This document shows, piece after piece, positions 3,185-12,238 of a stretch of DNA of 28,645 nt. This DNA comes from Rhodoferax sp. GTDB taxonomy: Bacteria > Pseudomonadota > Gammaproteobacteria > Burkholderiales > Burkholderiaceae_C. Made by a program: the position numbers and the translations under genes. Below the pieces are notes generated by a model. It saw only the letters and a program-made list of their open reading frames with translations, was not told where the DNA came from and searched no databases. Position 1 is the stretch's first letter, and each line of letters opens with the position of its first letter. The stretch lies in assembly GCA_029946045.1 (NCBI GenBank), contig JAQSDS010000333.1:1-28645 (forward strand), given 5' to 3'.

Positions 3185-3383
3185 ACAAAAAATATATACG
3201 AGCCCATATCTTCAGTAACTTGTTGATTTCAATTGGTTTTATTGGATTTTCGGCAAAAGCAGCCAGCCATGTGTATAAAATCAATGTACTTTCCCGCTTT
3301 TTAAGCGCGCTTCAGATTCTAAAAACTGCCTGGATATTTTCGCAACGCATTGATTCATATAGATTTTTTTAAGTATTTTCAAG

Positions 3384-3400
3384 TTGGCACGGGCTATGCT
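3384..3400 (+). promoter_or_regulatory. Sigma-54 (RpoN) -24/-12 promoter
   Basis: TTGGCACGGGCTATGCT matches the RpoN consensus TTGGCACG-N4-TTGC-W at every defined base except the first T of TTGC (A here), with correct GG-to-GC spacing. Transcription would start near 3411, about 36 bases before the ATG of the response regulator, leaving room for the strong Shine-Dalgarno AAGGAGA at 3434-3440. The spacer 3150-3383 is AT-rich compared with the GC-rich genes around it, which fits an upstream activator/IHF region, but I see no convincing enhancer or IHF consensus. The spacer contains no supported gene. Confidence 0.82.
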
Positions 3401-3446
3401 TAGAGATAAGCAGTCTGAACCCAATTGAACCTTAAGGAGAAATATC

Positions 3447-4322
3447 ATGAGTGCACTGCGTAAAGTCCTGGTCGTCGATGATGACGCTGTGGTTGGCAAA
3501 AGCTTCAACCGTGTTTTGTCAAGCAAAGGCTATATCGTCACAACCGCCCAGAATGCCCACGAAGCCCTGAAACAGATTCGCGAACAAGAGTTTGATGTCG
3601 TCTTCACCGACATCAAGATGCCCGGCATGGATGGGGTTGAACTGGCTGAACACGTCAAATCCAGTCGGCCCTGGACTCCTGTGGTCATCATCACCGGCTT
3701 TGGCACCACCGAAAACGAATCGCGCGCCAAGGCCGCAGGCGTCTCGGATTTCATGCGTAAACCTCTGTCACCCGAGATGATTGAAGCCAGTGCCGCCAAG
3801 GCCATGTCGGCCCCGGTGCTGTCAGTGGTTCCGGTGCCAGAAGTCAGTTTCAGTGCAGCACAGCCTGTTGAAGTCCTTGAAAAGCAACATGGCTTCAAGA
3901 GCCTGGCACTCGCTCTGGCAGCACCGTTCATCGGTCTGGCTTACGCGGTGTTGCTGCCCCTGATCGGCATCGCCATGCTGGCCTGGATCGGCGGCAAAGC
4001 CCTGGTGCAAACGCAGGCTGCCAAAAGAGCCCCCACCTACCTGAAAAATGTGGCCCTGTTCTTTGCCGCCCCGTTCATTGGCCTGGTCTATGCCATGTCG
4101 CTTCCTTTGGTTGGCATCTCGATCCTCGCATGGTCTGCCGGCAAGGCCATGATGGCCAACCCCAAAGGGCGCAAGCTACTGACTGCCCTGGCAACAGCCG
4201 GCAAGCTGGTCGCTGCCCCCTTCATCGGTCTGGCTTATGCGGTCATCATGCCTCTGGTTGGCATCGCCATGTTGCTCGGGATAGGCGCCAAGGCGCTGGT
4301 GAGCACCCGAACAGCTGAATGA
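3447..4322 (+). CDS. Response regulator receiver domain fused to three hydrophobic 49-residue-period repeats
   Basis: Residues 1-120 form a CheY-like receiver domain: acidic pocket D11-D13, phospho-acceptor D55 in the FTDIKMPGMDG segment, T83, and K105 in RKPL. Instead of a DNA-binding or enzymatic output domain, residues 158-187, 207-236 and 256-285 are three near-identical hydrophobic segments of the form AAPFIGLAYAV..PLVGIAML....KAL, spaced exactly 49 residues apart. Each could be a proline-kinked membrane helix, so phosphorylation may act on a membrane-inserted or oligomerising tail (inference). No kinase gene is adjacent. The start is fixed by AAGGAGA seven bases upstream. It is monocistronic: sigma-54 promoter in front, strong terminator behind. 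I do not recognise a named family for the tail. Confidence 0.9.
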   Translation: MSALRKVLVVDDDAVVGKSFNRVLSSKGYIVTTAQNAHEALKQIREQEFDVVFTDIKMPGMDGVELAEHVKSSRPWTPVVIITGFGTTENESRAKAAGVSDFMRKPLSPEMIEASAAKAMSAPVLSVVPVPEVSFSAAQPVEVLEKQHGFKSLALALAAPFIGLAYAVLLPLIGIAMLAWIGGKALVQTQAAKRAPTYLKNVALFFAAPFIGLVYAMSLPLVGISILAWSAGKAMMANPKGRKLLTALATAGKLVAAPFIGLAYAVIMPLVGIAMLLGIGAKALVSTRTAE

Positions 4323-4349: not shown

Positions 4350-4380
4350 AGCGCCCTTGGTCAGACAAGGGCGCTTTTTT
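4350..4380 (+). terminator. Rho-independent terminator of the response regulator gene
   Basis: A perfect 10-bp stem, AGCGCCCTTG paired with CAAGGGCGCT, has a 6-base loop and is followed by a run of T. A smaller perfect 6-bp hairpin (GGACCC/GGGTCC, 4329-4344) sits just before it. Together they close the transcript 28 bases after the stop codon. Confidence 0.92.
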
Positions 4381-4491: not shown

Positions 4492-4497
4492 ATGACC

Positions 4498-4971
4498 ATG
4501 CTTACGTTCACCGCATCACAGGCCAAACAAAATTTCGGCGCCCTGCTGGGCCAACTCGCGCACAGCCCGGTAGCCATTGAGCGCCATCACAAAACCGTTG
4601 CGGTTGTACTGTCCCCTGAGGCGGCGCAATCTGTCATCGACCCGCGACGCCAGGCGCGCCAGGCGCAGCAGCAGCGCGAGTTGCAACGCTTGATGCAGCA
4701 CCAGCATTTGGCCATTGACTTGCTGTGCGCACCCCAGCCTGTCCAGAAAAACCGTGTTCAGGACGCGCTCAAACAGGTGAATCGATGGGAAGCCGAGCAC
4801 TTGTGCAGCGCCGACTACGTCGAGCGCTGGCGGCAATGGCTGGCCTTGCCTGTCTCGGAATTGGCACCGCTGATGTGCGGCCCAGCGCAAGGCTGGGGAC
4901 CCGCCATGCGGCAAAATTCACCGTTCACAGCCAACAGCAGCAACGTCCTTTTGGCAACTACCGCGCCATGA
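4498..4971 (+). CDS. Phd/YefM-family antitoxin-like protein
   Basis: The N-terminus (LTFTASQAKQNFGALLGQLA, then VAIERHHKTVAVVLSPEAA) is a typical Phd/YefM fold: a DNA-binding antitoxin head with the conserved S-x-A-x-x-N-F pattern. The protein is about 157 residues, longer than the usual 80-90, with a Gln/Arg-rich middle and a Trp-containing tail that could bind the partner. Two in-frame ATGs exist (4492 and 4498). I prefer 4498 because the predicted transcription start coincides with it and no Shine-Dalgarno sequence precedes either. The stop overlaps the next start as ATGA (4968-4971), so the two proteins are translationally coupled. Likely role: repressor and antitoxin of the downstream protein (inference from family and layout). 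Confidence 0.82.
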   Translation: MLTFTASQAKQNFGALLGQLAHSPVAIERHHKTVAVVLSPEAAQSVIDPRRQARQAQQQRELQRLMQHQHLAIDLLCAPQPVQKNRVQDALKQVNRWEAEHLCSADYVERWRQWLALPVSELAPLMCGPAQGWGPAMRQNSPFTANSSNVLLATTAP

Positions 4972-5495
4972 ATATTGATGTGCTCATGCACCTGCTGAGT
5001 GCCGCACAAAAACTCTGCGGTCACCGTGACTATGTCGTCATCGGCAGCTTGTCGGTACTTGGTATGGCGCAGGTGGAAGCCATCCCGTTGGACATGACGC
5101 TGTCGATCGATGCCGACTGTTACACCCTGACTGACCCGCCACGGGTATTTGACCTGGCCGAAGCCTTGGGCGAAGGCAGCCCGTATCACCAGTTGCACGG
5201 CGTGTATCTGGATCCAGTCTCGCCCCATTTACCCACACTGCCCTCCGGCTGGGAGCCGCGCCTGATCAAGGTGAAGCATGCGCAGGTGACTGCCCATTTT
5301 CTGGAACCCAATGACGCGGCCATTTCCAAACTGGCACGCGGCGAGCCACGGGATCTGCGCTGGGTTCGCGCGGGCCTGAAGGCGTCGCTGATTGCTTTGC
5401 CAGTGCTGCGACTGCGGGCGCGCAACACCACGTTTCTGGATGCTGCTGAGCAAGCGGCCACCTTGGCAAGGCTGGCCGAACTGGAAACCGACTAA
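4968..5495 (+). CDS. Nucleotidyltransferase-like protein (DUF6036-like), putative toxin partner
   Basis: 175 residues starting at the ATG inside the ATGA overlap with the Phd gene; the longer frame from 4725 only shadows that gene. Residues 22-50 read VVIGSLSVLG...LDMTLSIDAD, resembling the G-S and D-x-D elements of minimal nucleotidyltransferases, with a family-like FLEPNDAAISKLARGEPRDL segment at 111-130. The match to the DUF6036/AbiEii-like group is by recognition of pattern, not by a search. If active it would transfer nucleotides to an RNA or protein target and be held in check by the Phd protein. It ends by sharing two bases of its TAA stop with the convergent gene's stop. Confidence 0.75.
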   Translation: MNIDVLMHLLSAAQKLCGHRDYVVIGSLSVLGMAQVEAIPLDMTLSIDADCYTLTDPPRVFDLAEALGEGSPYHQLHGVYLDPVSPHLPTLPSGWEPRLIKVKHAQVTAHFLEPNDAAISKLARGEPRDLRWVRAGLKASLIALPVLRLRARNTTFLDAAEQAATLARLAELETD

Positions 5496-5971
5496 CGCTC
5501 GCCCGGCCGAGCAAAGCCGCCTTCAACCCACGCCACTGCGCTGCTGCGGTTGAGCTTGAACGATGGTGCCACGCGCACTTCGGCCAGCAGCTCATCCCCC
5601 TCGTCTTTGGCGCTCAGCATGGCGTAAGGCATGTCTTCATCGGGCACGATGTCCAGGCACACGGTGATACGGGTCGATCCGGCACTGACGGTGATGCTCT
5701 GGTGCAGTGTGGCGTGCAAGTGCTGTTCGTTGCGGCGAATGAACTCGTGGGCGGTCTTGACCAGGGTGCTGAAGGCGTTGCCGTCCAGCGGTTTGGGGTT
5801 CTTTTTGTCGCGCCCCATGGTCCAGGGGCCGACCAGCGCCGGCTCGGACTCGCCGTGCTTGAACATGGCCACGGCCCAGCCGTCATCATCTTCGTTTTTA
5901 ACCACCCGGGCGGTCCAGCCGTCGCCCCGCCACAAGCGTGGTTCCTGGATTTTTTCAGCGAATTCAGTCAT
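5492..5971 (-). CDS. Conserved hypothetical protein, third gene of the NodIJ operon
   Basis: A 159-residue soluble protein without signal peptide or membrane segment. It starts with MTEFAEKIQEPRLWRGDGWTA and has a central WTMGRDKKNPKPLDGNAF segment and a C-terminal acidic stretch (DEDMPYAML, DEGDELLAEV). I do not recognise a domain. Its ATG overlaps the stop of the permease gene by 4 bases, so it is very likely co-translated with the ABC exporter, which suggests an accessory role or simple co-regulation. The ORF is supported by the coupling and by coding-like composition. Confidence 0.75.
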   Translation of the reverse strand: MTEFAEKIQEPRLWRGDGWTARVVKNEDDDGWAVAMFKHGESEPALVGPWTMGRDKKNPKPLDGNAFSTLVKTAHEFIRRNEQHLHATLHQSITVSAGSTRITVCLDIVPDEDMPYAMLSAKDEGDELLAEVRVAPSFKLNRSSAVAWVEGGFARPGER

Positions 5972-6789
5972 GCCCGAAACCGTTTGCGCGTCAGTGCCAG
6001 CGCCACCCAGAAACCCAGACCCGCGTAGCTCGCAAGCACCGCCAGCGGACGCAGCCAGTCAGTGGGCCACTGGTCCATGAACAGCGGGCGCACCAGCACC
6101 ACCGCGTTGGTCAGGGGCAGCCATTGCGAAATGGCGCGCACCACGGCGGGCAACTGCTCCAGCGGAAAGAAGATGCCGCTCAGGAACATCATGGGCGTCA
6201 GAAAAAGCGTGAAGTAATAGGTAAAAAAGTCATAACCTTTGGCCAGCGCGTTGAAAATCAGCGCCACGCAACTGAAAGTAATGCCCACCCCCAGCAGCAC
6301 CGGCCAGGCCAACAACAACTTGGGGCTGTAGCTGATGCCAAGCACCAGCATCACGCCCAGGATGGCGGTCACAGTGAAGACCGACTTGAAAGCCGCCCAC
6401 AGCATTTCGGCCATCACGATGTCATCCAGATTGACCGGCGCGTTCATGATGCCGTCCCAGGTTTTTTGCACGTGCATGCGCGAAAACGCCGAGTACAGCG
6501 CCTCGAAACTGGCGGCGTTCATGGCGCTCATGCAAATCGAGCCACTGGCCAAAAACAAAATGTAGGGCACTTGCACGCCGTCCACCGTGATGCTGCCCAC
6601 CAGCGCGCCCATGCCGTAGCCAAAGGCCACCAGCCACATCAGCGGTTCGGCAATGTTGCCGACCAGGCTCGGAATGGCCAGCTTTTTCCAGACCAGCCAA
6701 TTGCGTCGAAACACCGGCCACCAGCGCATCGACAGCTGGGGTGCGCGCCAGACCGACTGCTTTATTTCTGAGCTCTTGTGGGTACTCAT
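5968..6789 (-). CDS. nodJ: ABC-2 type exporter permease, NodJ-like
   Basis: 273 residues from the ATG at 6789, which overlaps the ATPase stop as ATGA; a longer frame to 7185 runs antisense-like inside the ATPase gene and is not used. The sequence is a six-helix ABC-2 permease: EPLMWLVAFGYGMGALVG near the first helices, then FLASGSICMSAMN, MNAPVNLDDIVMAEMLW in the coupling region, and FLTPMMFLSGIFFPLEQLP, a strong NodJ/DrrB signature. NodJ proteins with NodI export lipo-chitooligosaccharides in rhizobia. In non-nodulating Burkholderiales the same pair is common and its substrate is unknown, so the symbol denotes family only. Confidence 0.85.
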   Translation of the reverse strand: MSTHKSSEIKQSVWRAPQLSMRWWPVFRRNWLVWKKLAIPSLVGNIAEPLMWLVAFGYGMGALVGSITVDGVQVPYILFLASGSICMSAMNAASFEALYSAFSRMHVQKTWDGIMNAPVNLDDIVMAEMLWAAFKSVFTVTAILGVMLVLGISYSPKLLLAWPVLLGVGITFSCVALIFNALAKGYDFFTYYFTLFLTPMMFLSGIFFPLEQLPAVVRAISQWLPLTNAVVLVRPLFMDQWPTDWLRPLAVLASYAGLGFWVALALTRKRFRA

Positions 6790-9001: not shown

Positions 9002-10219
9002 ATGTTGCGCCTGCCTTTTGCCCTCATGGTGTGCCTGCGCTACCTGCGCGAGGGCCGTATGCAAACTGTGTTGATCCTGGCGGGCGTCACCGGCGGCGTG
9101 GCCGTGATCATCTTTTTGACCACCCTGATCAGCCAACTGCAAGCCTCCATCATCGACAAAACACTGGGCAGCCAGGCCCATATCGTGCTCAAGGCGGCGC
9201 AAGCGGTCAACCGCACCACGCTGCCACCAGACCAAACGGCCGCCATCATCCAGCCGCGTGCGCAACGCCTGCGCTCCATCGACCAATGGTCGGCAGTGGC
9301 GCAACTGGCCGCGCAGACGCCCGGGGTGCTGGCGGTGTCGCCCATGCTCTCGGGCGCCGGCTTTGCCACCCGCGCCGATGCCAACCAGCCCATTGCCATG
9401 ATGGGCGTGGACGCGCAAGCCTACCAGCGCATTGTGCGCATGGACAAGTACCTGCAAGCGGGACGTTTTGATGTCAGCGGCGCCAACGCTGTCATCGGCA
9501 TGGAACTGGCCAAGGAATTGGGCGTGACGGTAGGCGACAAGGTCCGGCTGGTGACCATGGACGGGCGCAACGATTTGTTCAGCATTGCCGGTATTTTCGA
9601 CATGGGCAACCGCGATCTGAACCGGCGCTGGGTGTTTATCAGCGTCAAGGTAGCGCAAACCTTGCTCGACCTGCCCGGCGGCATCACGCAGATTGACCTG
9701 CGCGTGGCCGACCTGTTCGCAGCCGAGGCCATCGCCCGGCCCTTGCAAGCGCAAACCGGCTTGCAAGTGGAGAGCTGGATGCAAACCAACGCGCAACTGC
9801 TCTCGGCCCTGAACAGCCAGAGCATCTCCAACAACCTGATCCGCACCTTTGTGACCGTGATTGTGGCGGTGGGTATTGCCAGCGTGCTGGTGGTGTCGGT
9901 GGTGCAAAAACAGAAAGAAATAGGCATCTTGCGCGCCATGGGCGCCAGCCCGCAGCGCATCATGGCGGTGTTTTTGCTGCAAGGCAGTTTTTATGGTCTG
10001 GCGGGCTCGGTGTTGGGCTCGGCACTGGCGCTGGGCCTGGTACAGTTTTTTGCGCGCATCACGCGCAATGCCGACGGCTCAGCGCTGGTGAGCCCAAACC
10101 TCGACCCCATGGTGGTGATCAGCGCCTGCGCCCTGGCGCTGGTGGTGGGCCTGCTGGCCGCCAGCCTGCCGGCACGCCGCGCCGCCAGTTTGGACCCGGT
10201 GCAGGCCATCCGCGTCTAA
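9002..10219 (+). CDS. FtsX/MacB-type ABC exporter permease
   Basis: 405 residues. An N-terminal helix (LILAGVTGGVAVIIFLTTLI) is followed by a large periplasmic MacB-like core domain (about residues 50-270) and three C-terminal helices of the FtsX domain, including TVIVAVGIASVLVVSVVQKQKEIGILRAMGAS and a final ASLPARRAASLDPVQAIRV tail typical of the family. It starts 8 bases after the adaptor stop and the ATPase follows 13 bases later, so the three genes form one operon. The order adaptor-permease-ATPase is that of devBCA, and split MacB-like systems share it. The substrate is not readable from sequence. Confidence 0.9.
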   Translation: MLRLPFALMVCLRYLREGRMQTVLILAGVTGGVAVIIFLTTLISQLQASIIDKTLGSQAHIVLKAAQAVNRTTLPPDQTAAIIQPRAQRLRSIDQWSAVAQLAAQTPGVLAVSPMLSGAGFATRADANQPIAMMGVDAQAYQRIVRMDKYLQAGRFDVSGANAVIGMELAKELGVTVGDKVRLVTMDGRNDLFSIAGIFDMGNRDLNRRWVFISVKVAQTLLDLPGGITQIDLRVADLFAAEAIARPLQAQTGLQVESWMQTNAQLLSALNSQSISNNLIRTFVTVIVAVGIASVLVVSVVQKQKEIGILRAMGASPQRIMAVFLLQGSFYGLAGSVLGSALALGLVQFFARITRNADGSALVSPNLDPMVVISACALALVVGLLAASLPARRAASLDPVQAIRV

Positions 10220-10232
10220 AACGGCCAGCACC

Positions 10233-10919
10233 ATGGGCAACATCGTCGAACTCAAGCAAGTGCGCAAAAGCTACGGCGAGGGTACGCCGGTAGTCACCGA
10301 AGTGTTGCACGGCATTGATCTGGCCATTGCCGAGGGCGAGTTTGCCGCGCTGACCGGGCCGTCGGGCTCAGGCAAAAGCACGCTGCTCAACATCATCGGC
10401 CTGCTCGAGCACGCCAGTGCTGGCCAGTTGTTGATCAACGGTCAGGACACCGCGCAACTGGGTGACGCCGCCATCACCGCGCTACGCGGCCGCAGCATTG
10501 GCTTCATTTTTCAGTTCCACCACCTGCTGCCGGGGTTTAGCGCTCTGGAGAACGTGATGATGCCAGCCATCATCGACGACGGTTGGCCCAGCACCCAAGC
10601 GCACGACAAGGCCATGCAGCTGCTGACGCAGGTCGGACTCAAGGACGCGGCGCACAAGCGGCCGTCGCAACTCTCGGGCGGCATGCAGCAGCGCGTGGCC
10701 ATTGCCCGCGCACTGTCCTTGTCGCCGCGCCTGATCCTGGCCGACGAACCCACGGGCAACCTCGACAGCCACAGCGCCAACGACATTTTTGAGCTGCTGC
10801 AAAGCATCAACCAGGAAAGGCAGTCGGCCTGCCTGATCGTGACCCACGATGCCGGTCTGGCGGCGCGCTGCCAGCGTCAGATCCAGATGGTGGACGGGCA
10901 GTTGCTGACCCCATCCTGA
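10233..10919 (+). CDS. ABC exporter ATPase, MacB/LolD/DevA type
   Basis: 228 residues with Walker A GPSGSGKS (42-49), Q-loop [11 protein letters not shown] (90-100), signature LSGGMQQR (147-154), Walker [14 protein letters not shown] (167-179) and the switch histidine in LIVTHD. This is the MacB/LolD subclass that works by mechanotransmission with FtsX-type permeases, matching the upstream gene. It is the last gene of the exporter operon; a hairpin with a short T run lies 74 bases downstream. Confidence 0.93.
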
Positions 10920-10992
10920 GGTTGACACGGCAAAAGCCCGCACGAGTTTGACGAATCCGTGAGCTCGTGGCAACAGTTGATCAGAGGCATTT

Positions 10993-11033
10993 ACCTGCAA
11001 TCTGAAGAAATGATTTTCAAATTGCAGGTTTTT
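10993..11033 (+). terminator. Perfect inverted repeat with T run: terminator or operator before the AAA/DUF4143 gene
   Basis: ACCTGCAAT (10993-11001) pairs perfectly with ATTGCAGGT (11021-11029). An inner TGAA/TTCA extension leaves a 9-base loop, and TTTTT ends the element. It can terminate the exporter operon, but it ends only 14 bases before the next ATG, so it may also regulate that gene. A weaker GC hairpin (CACGAG/CTCGTG, 10941-10969) precedes it. Confidence 0.65.
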
Positions 11034-11047
11034 GGTACCATCAAGAT

Positions 11048-12238
11048 ATGATTCAACGCAACATTGCACCGGTACTGCAACACCTGGCCAGCCAGTACCC
11101 GGTGATTACACTCACTGGCCCCCGTCAGAGCGGCAAGACAACATTGGCCCGGAGTCTGTTTGCCGACAAGCCCTACGTAACATTGGAAGACCCTGATGTG
11201 CGCCGCTTCGCAACTGACGACCCGCGCGGTTTTTTGGCGGGCTACCCGCAGGGCGCCATTTTTGATGAAATACAGCGCGCGCCCGAGCTGACGTCTTATT
11301 TGCAGGGGATGGTCGACACCAATCCGCAACCGGGCCGCTTTATTCTCACGGGCAGCCATCAATTTGAGCTGATGACACAAGTCTCACAATCGTTGGCCGG
11401 TCGGACGGCGGTGTTGCGCCTGCTGCCATTCACCGTGGCCGAGGTGCACCGCATCAGGGGCACAGTGGCAACGCCTGGTCTGGCGCAAACCCTTCTCACG
11501 GGTTTCTACCCCCGCATTCACGACAAGGGCCTGAACCCGTCACAGGCCCTGGCCGACTACTTTGCCACCTATGTCGAGCGCGATTTGCGCCAGCTTGCCG
11601 CCGTTCAGGATTTGCAGCGCTTTGAGCGTTTTGTGCGCTTGTGCGCCGGACGCACCGGGCAATTGCTCAATCTCAACAGCCTGGGCAATGATGCCGGCGT
11701 GTCGCATGTCACCGCCAGAACCTGGATCGACCTGCTGCAAACCAGCTACATCGTGCACTTGCTGCCGCCCTGGTTTACCAACACCGGTAAGCGCCTGATC
11801 AAGGCGCCCAAACTGTATTTTTACGATGTCGGCCTGGCTTGCTGGTTGCTGGGCTTGCGCAGCGCAGAACAAGTGGCGCGCGACCCGCTCTGGGGCAGTC
11901 TGTTTGAGAATTTTGTCATCATGGAGGCCATGAAAGACCGCTTGAACGCAGGAGAAAGCGCCGAGATGTATTTCTACCGTGACTCCGAAGGCAACGAGGT
12001 CGATTTGCTGCTGCCCGTCGGCGGCAAGATGCACGCCATCGAAATCAAGGCCGGCGCCACCATCAACCCTGATTACTTCAAAGGACTCAAAACCTTTGCC
12101 GCCCATCATCCAGAAGCTGTCGCTGGCGGTGGGGTTATCTACGGCGGCGCGCAAGACCAAAGTCGCAGTGACTGGCCGGTCCATTCCTGGCTGACCTTGC
12201 AGACCAAACCAGCGACCGAGACCACACTGGCTGGATAA
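11048..12238 (+). CDS. AAA-family ATPase with DUF4143 domain
   Basis: 396 residues. The N-terminal AAA_14 ATPase shows Walker A GPRQSGKT (24-31), a Walker B-like IFDEIQ (71-76) and the sensor-like [10 protein letters not shown] (100-109). The C-terminal DUF4143 region carries [30 protein letters not shown] and, near the end, a PD-(D/E)xK-like [20 protein letters not shown] segment. Members of this widespread family are often stand-alone, horizontally mobile genes; their biochemical role is not settled. No Shine-Dalgarno sequence is seen. A TACCAT hexamer ends six bases before the ATG. It is not obviously linked to either neighbour. Confidence 0.9.

Follow-up and report, generated by a model that had tools for sequence, protein, structure and literature searches.

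A receiver domain joined to a repeated hydrophobic tail of an uncatalogued family, behind a predicted sigma-54 promoter, in Rhodoferax sp.

The window, i.e. the whole stretch of 28 645 nt of Rhodoferax sp. DNA that was analysed (contig JAQSDS010000333.1), carries on its plus strand an uninterrupted reading frame (3447..4322; ATG at 3447, stop codon ending at 4322) for a protein of 291 amino acids. Its amino-terminal part is a receiver domain (residues 7-114, 3465..3788, plus strand) with D55 as phosphoacceptor: the match to PF00072 has an E-value of 1.7e-28 and a score of 99.5 bits, for a cut-off of 30.2, and the matches of the window protein in the PDB fold search are receiver structures. An earlier note on this DNA had pointed to D55, T83 and K105 as the visible receiver residues; these, together with D11-D12-D13, show no variation across the 26 sequences of alignment A1, which we picked among 121 proteins. 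The best NCBIfam scores of the protein are with FixJ, PorX, NosR and NtrC-type receivers, all far under their cut-offs, and every one of the best 25 of the 104 families lies on the receiver part. Phosphorylation by a cognate kinase is probable. A defence role was considered and rejected: the PADLOC matches of the window protein are confined to its receiver, and a stand-alone tail gave no PADLOC match. Beyond the stop codon, a hairpin with a 10-pair stem followed by Ts (4350..4375, plus strand) resembles an intrinsic terminator and would make the gene a one-gene transcript; by itself this is weak evidence, because the region has three such sites for 2.1 expected in shuffles. Just downstream, an ORF for a PhdYeFM antitoxin (4492-4971) overlaps one for a DUF6036 nucleotidyltransferase (4725-5495).

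The second half of the protein consists of three copies of a hydrophobic 49-residue unit, corresponding to residues 147-195 (3885..4031), 196-244 (4032..4178) and 245-291 (4179..4319), all on the plus strand. The spacing of exactly 49 residues between AAPFIGL segments, already claimed in the earlier note, is borne out by the motif starts (residues 158, 207 and 256) and by a self-identity of 42/98 at lag 49, the best value in 2000 shuffles, over lags of 30-69, being 26. Each of the units is strongly hydrophobic, Kyte-Doolittle 19-residue means reaching 2.4, 2.1 and 2.4, respectively. The copies are old, since DNA identity between units is just 54-62% (80/147, 80/141 and 87/141). In related loci, HMM match starts are about 40-57 residues apart, and once 86, so that 49 is a frequent period without being a required one. 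Within 179 units from these loci, a K or R is found at position -9 in 82% and at position +24 in 79%, and positions -4 to +19 are free of any K, R, D or E; the units were chosen with a regular expression fixing some P, G and L positions, and the invariance of these residues among them is therefore by choice. However, in alignment A6, made without the regular expression from 59 of the 60 two-unit tails retained by a spacing filter, P28, G31, L32, P39 and G42, and likewise P77, G80, L81, P88 and G91, are invariant in all 59 rows. Each unit has two PF-x-G motifs 11 residues apart, and unit self-identity at lag 11 is 0.24, versus 0.06-0.15 at other lags from 5 to 19.

Both the hydrophobicity and the distribution of charges are in keeping with a tail that would insert in the inner membrane. 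The linkers between units are net positive in all 101 cases counted (mean +3.48), and positively charged linkers lie, by the positive-inside rule, on the cytoplasmic side; each unit would therefore go into the membrane and back out, with both its ends cytoplasmic. This topology is argued from charge and is not supported by the AlphaFold2 models, in which each unit is one long helix of 40-50 residues containing the prolines, and not a hairpin. The mean pLDDT of these models is 76.1 for the window protein and 82.8 for the stand-alone tail of locus L064.

The earlier note had also stated that the receiver lacks a known output domain, and a catalogued domain was looked for in the tail in four ways. 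In a Pfam scan of 59 tails no family was consistently found (the commonest appeared in 8/59 with an E-value of 0.03, and the lowest E-value, 0.00039, was reached in 3/59), and the outcome was the same with NCBIfam (commonest family in 7/59, E-value 0.021; lowest E-value 0.00032, in 2/59). The tail has no sequence match in the PDB, and the predicted model of a stand-alone tail has no PDB fold match at E<=10. In these searches, where Pfam and NCBIfam gave no more than scattered and weak matches, the tail is recognised neither as a described output family nor as soluble helices of a known fold. Judged by these searches, the protein is an intact receiver without any catalogued output domain, and the receiver-tail proteins are an uncatalogued family. 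It resembles the PF00072 response regulators in having a complete receiver with its catalytic residues, but differs from them in that a repeated hydrophobic module stands in place of a DNA-binding, enzymatic or other catalogued output; with single-domain response regulators it shares a receiver devoid of a DNA-binding domain, but it differs from these by the attached hydrophobic module of about 140 residues. Among the literature matches listed, which consist of titles and abstract openings and cover the field in part, there is no description of a membrane-tail regulator or of its regulon.

Tail homologues are numerous: 2043 were scored at E<=0.001 in a sequence search and 2830 in a profile search, each among about 8000 candidates kept. 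One two-unit homologue, P0094, bears the database name Rhodoferax ferrireducens T118. The family is nevertheless sparse: the whole receiver-tail protein is present in 3 of 150 genomes of the taxonomic family, while the tail profile matches 7 of the 399 sampled from the order (at most 12 candidates being scored per genome) and 1 of 398 from the phylum, the window's own genome being counted each time. Out of 211 confirmed genome loci we analysed 80, several of which share a genome, with genes called by an ORF heuristic of our own; alignments A5, A2 and A3 hold 82 of 121 proteins, 12 of 16 tails and 16 of 87, respectively. Two units are found in 61 of the 80 loci, three in 18 and a single one in 1. 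The earlier note had not foreseen that the tail also occurs without a receiver, as in at least 10 of the 80 loci (L063, L064, L066, L069, L070, L073, L075, L077, L079 and L080; the L075 gene extends to the edge of its locus). Record titles place tail loci in Beta-, Alpha- and Gammaproteobacteria; L027 comes from a MAG labelled Chitinophaga, and its gene groups with proteobacterial ones in the tree.

Upstream of the window gene, on the same strand, lie an element resembling an upstream activator site (UAS; TGTATAAAATCAATGTACTT, 3272..3291), conserved in alignment A4; an IHF-like box (CAACGCATTGATT, 3343..3355), whose AA and TTGA are invariant in A4 and for which we took YAANNNNTTGATW to be the IHF consensus; a predicted sigma-54 -24/-12 promoter (TGGCACGGGCTATGCT, 3385..3400) starting 62 nt before the ATG; and a ribosome-binding site, AAGGAG (3434..3439), recognised from the sequence and also conserved in A4. 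The UAS and the IHF box are putative protein-binding sites. Scored against the -24/-12 consensus, the promoter matches 11 of 12 positions and has the GG at -24 and the GC at -12; when the 250 nt upstream were shuffled 2000 times, 0.15% of the shuffles did as well. A match of at least 10/12 is present in 32 of 76 upstream regions, whereas 0.4 would be expected from shuffles and 1.6 from random windows. The order UAS, IHF-like box, sigma-54 promoter is common to receiver-fused and stand-alone tail genes, and the element accompanies all 10 of the receiverless loci listed above. In this order of sites, and in the PF00158 activator beside cytochrome-linked relatives, the system is like known sigma-54/NtrC-type circuits; it differs in that the element, in the scanned loci, precedes one membrane family and, twice, a gene for a small CxxCH protein.

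The motif for UAS and promoter was drawn from the window and from 16 loci chosen for a promoter about 60 nt upstream. Searched on both strands of 87 loci (1.0 Mb), a strict pattern combining the two gave 43 matches, each of them upstream of a tail gene or of the operon containing one, versus 0-3 (mean 0.65) for 20 sets of permuted words; 14 of the 43 are in motif-defining loci and 29 outside them. UAS-to-promoter distances are 103-128, and an IHF box lies between the two in 34 of the 43 sites, for 0.37 expected in shuffles. A PWM version, trained on the strict matches and then run on the same loci, gave 74 matches, versus 0-4 (mean 0.9) for ten column-shuffled PWMs. With it the element is found in 62 of 74 eligible loci; the 12 lacking it are all seven viral-contig loci together with L027, L036, L039, L044 and L047. 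Only two PWM matches are not before tail genes, those of L042 and L055, and each directly precedes a gene for a small CxxCH protein (L042:14088-14426 and L055:11947-12366, minus strand) near a cytochrome-linked locus; since these genes have their own UAS/sigma-54 element, they are probably in the regulon. The exact UAS occurs in the window's 3.3-Mb assembly only at the present gene. With 2 mismatches allowed, the same search gave 3 matches versus 10 for a reversed control, and the two inexact ones are therefore meaningless. That tail genes are linked in one sigma-54 regulon is, from this distribution of predicted sites, well supported.

Genes for a multiheme cytochrome c and/or a cytochrome b561 lie near the tail gene in 36 of the 80 loci (as defined by score thresholds). 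A sigma-54 activator with its kinase is present in 23 of the 80, many loci being cut by contig ends, and in 19 it is accompanied by both cytochromes. The order in loci such as L007, L012, L017, L022 and L040 is single-domain receiver, receiver-tail protein, multiheme cytochrome c, cytochrome b561, followed on the opposite strand by a sigma-54 activator with a receiver and then by the kinase. In example loci scanned with Pfam, the cytochrome b561 (that of L007) belongs to PF01292 and the NtrC-type activator beside cytochrome-linked relatives to PF00158. Most of the multiheme cytochromes displayed have 9 CxxCH motifs, but 7 and 13 also occur, and a CxxCH motif is present in 23 of the 24 kinases above threshold, the exception, in L007, being cut at the end of the locus. 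Two of the 36 loci, L034 and L061, have a different set, named by eye: a cytochrome with 5 CxxCH, an FeS-like protein, a large membrane protein and a long CxxCH kinase.

The activator is associated with tail genes at the genome level as well. Starting from 20 loci where the tail gene is away from the cluster, 19 genomes were reached, 17 of which have an orthologue of the L017 activator, 82-100% identical, and two of which have none at the cut-off; in this count two matches are incomplete, one genome is that from which the query came and four, including the latter, were known beforehand to have the cluster. In the sample of 399 genomes of the order, with 4 candidates scored per genome, the activator was found at E<=1e-150 in four genomes, from four families, all of them among the 7 that are tail-positive, a co-occurrence with a probability of 3.4e-8 if genomes were independent. 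The other three tail-positive genomes (G000, G250 and G430) lack it, the tail match of G430 being weak (8.7e-4).

Among the nearest genes scanned around the window gene there is no set of multiheme cytochrome c, b-type cytochrome and sigma-54 response regulator, and the assembly, which is 86.7% complete, contains no orthologue of the cytochrome c, the kinase or the activator (best identities of 33%, 33% and 43%, respectively, when corresponding orthologues between the compared lineages have about 42-80%). This may reflect loss, or an assembly gap at such completeness. In a tree of 63 receiver-tail proteins, from which proteins lacking a readable receiver start were dropped, the window gene is one of 14 that form a clade (100/97) and have no cytochrome genes beside them; this clade adjoins seven cytochrome-linked copies from Rhodoferax, Polaromonas and uncultured betaproteobacterial MAGs (89/88). 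Four MAGs hold both a close relative of the window gene and a cytochrome-linked copy (L002+L012, L003+L020, L004+L017 and L005+L009). It is likely, though not proved, that the window-type gene arose by duplication out of the cytochrome operon.

Tail matches were also found on seven IMG/VR contigs, the one of L088 being weak (31%, 2e-5). A terminase large subunit is encoded on those of L084 (142 kb) and L087 (181 kb), with the proviso that phrog_2 alone also matches 11 of 14 control genomes, and the tail proteins of these two contigs are receiverless, with two units (L084:4331-4705) and one unit (L087:6013-6234). The L084 tail gene adjoins an NAD synthase gene. On the contig of L085 (166 kb) there are RIIA, ribonucleotide reductase, exonuclease and RNA ligase families but no phrog_2 match; its receiver-tail gene (5698-6387) codes for a protein that retains D, T and K and is followed, 3.6 kb on, by two multiheme cytochrome c genes (9959-10468 and 10562-11287). 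Nothing like phage multiheme cytochromes appears in the titles and abstract openings of the literature matches listed, the coverage of which is partial. Three viral-contig proteins form one branch in the tree (100/100). In INPHARED, 103 phage records were matched, none covering 80% of the query and all with less than 60% identity, and among the best 20 of the 103 the annotated ones mostly look like ordinary receivers. The presence of the module in phages suggests a product that is of use in its own right.

Our preferred reading, which we hold with slightly less than even confidence, is that the gene codes for a response regulator that acts on the membrane, represents an uncatalogued family and belongs to a sigma-54 regulon linked to multiheme cytochromes. 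In this scheme a redox change would be sensed by a kinase bearing a CxxCH (c-heme-like) motif; the kinase would phosphorylate the NtrC-type activator, which would bind the TGTA..TGTACTT element while IHF bends the DNA; transcription by sigma-54 RNA polymerase would then yield the receiver-tail protein and, from other sites in the genome, the multiheme cytochrome c/cytochrome b561 pair. The receiver-tail protein would enter the inner membrane through its units, both ends of each remaining cytoplasmic; D55, probably phosphorylated by the activator's kinase, would change the packing of the tail against itself or against the cytochrome complex and so tune electron flow. Such a circuit may exist in the window's own cell. 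Against this reading stand the 44 of the 80 loci that are without such a cytochrome, many loci being truncated where a contig stops, and, from the results above, the missing orthologues in the window's assembly, the tail-positive genomes without the activator (2 of 19 and 3 of 7), the 12 eligible loci without the element and the long AlphaFold2 helices. A broader proposal, which we consider possible but put forward with marked reserve, is that two-component signalling acts here in a new manner, phosphorylated receivers operating directly on the inner membrane and its electron-transfer complexes via a modular repeat within a dedicated heme-kinase/sigma-54 regulon, and that large phages carry switchable and switch-free forms of it to control host respiration. 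Of the new output type envisaged in the earlier note, the intact receiver and the uncatalogued tail hold, as against signal-controlled membrane insertion, which rests on sequence only, and pore formation, to which nothing found points; the sigma-54 promoter common to the window gene and its relatives, many of which stand beside multiheme cytochrome genes, goes beyond that note. The targets of most response regulators are DNA, RNA, enzymes or partner proteins; if our reading is true, a membrane-like module attached to a receiver, but also existing without it and in phages, widens what phosphorylated receivers control, and the promoter element and cytochrome neighbourhood give a family without a function a concrete, testable hypothesis.

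A comparable assembly of gene kinds is provided by Geobacter, where a multiheme c and a membrane b-type cytochrome also go with a sigma-54-type activator: BccR, reportedly described by Joshi in 2021, is said to be the sigma-54-dependent regulator of CbcBA. We know of no receiver-tail protein in that system, and here the receiver-tail gene often stands alone. CbcBA is treated in PMC12307469 and PMC10553843.

The main rival of a membrane-acting output is a membrane-anchored phosphate sink: the receiver would compete with the activator for kinase phosphate and damp the circuit, the tail serving only to hold it near the kinase. Cytochrome-linked loci such as L007, L009, L012, L017, L022, L040 and L052 have three receivers, single-domain, receiver-tail and activator, beside one kinase, and the receiver-tail gene has the promoter element of the regulon, as feedback would need. 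We nevertheless judge it unlikely, though worth serious attention, because the tail is conserved motif by motif, beyond the needs of a plain anchor, and because at least 10 of the 80 bacterial loci, those 10 with the promoter element, and phage contigs L084 and L087 carry the tail without a receiver to act as sink. Another possibility, to which we give little credit, is a membrane-shaping module, in principle reticulon-like if, as we presume, the tail wedges can be likened to reticulon hairpins: hydrophobic wedges would bend or order the inner membrane for the respiratory complexes, the receiver being the switch. Uncharged cores in tandem between basic linkers, in copy numbers of 1-3, would suit it, as would the intracytoplasmic membranes of Geobacter under limiting energy, the subject of PMC10082016, but there is no structure match and the AlphaFold2 helices are continuous rather than hairpins. 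That the gene is a low-function leftover, having outlived the cytochrome system in the window's lineage, is quite improbable: the cluster of cytochrome, kinase and activator was not found in the assembly (86.7% complete), but nothing is missing from the receiver residues, the units or the promoter, and the four close relatives mentioned above hold both a window-like gene and the cluster. A pore or holin-like oligomer under phosphorylation control, of which the small unit-only proteins on large phage contigs might be reminiscent, is very improbable, as in bacteria the tail is accompanied by respiratory genes and the common promoter element, and positions -4 to +19 have no K, R, D or E in the 179 units.

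Two further tail contexts were noted. P0048 is a predicted protein of 224 amino acids, on a contig of 802 bases, in which HypA (PF01155) is joined to three tail units; we set it aside as a probable, though unproven, assembly chimera, because the HypA-tail junction falls at residues common to the linker of P0051. A stand-alone tail gene with a full promoter element (L064:7986-8357) lies inside a [NiFe] hydrogenase cluster together with a sigma-54 regulator and a kinase; the idea that the tail is a hydrogenase subunit was rejected, since other copies are in unrelated surroundings.
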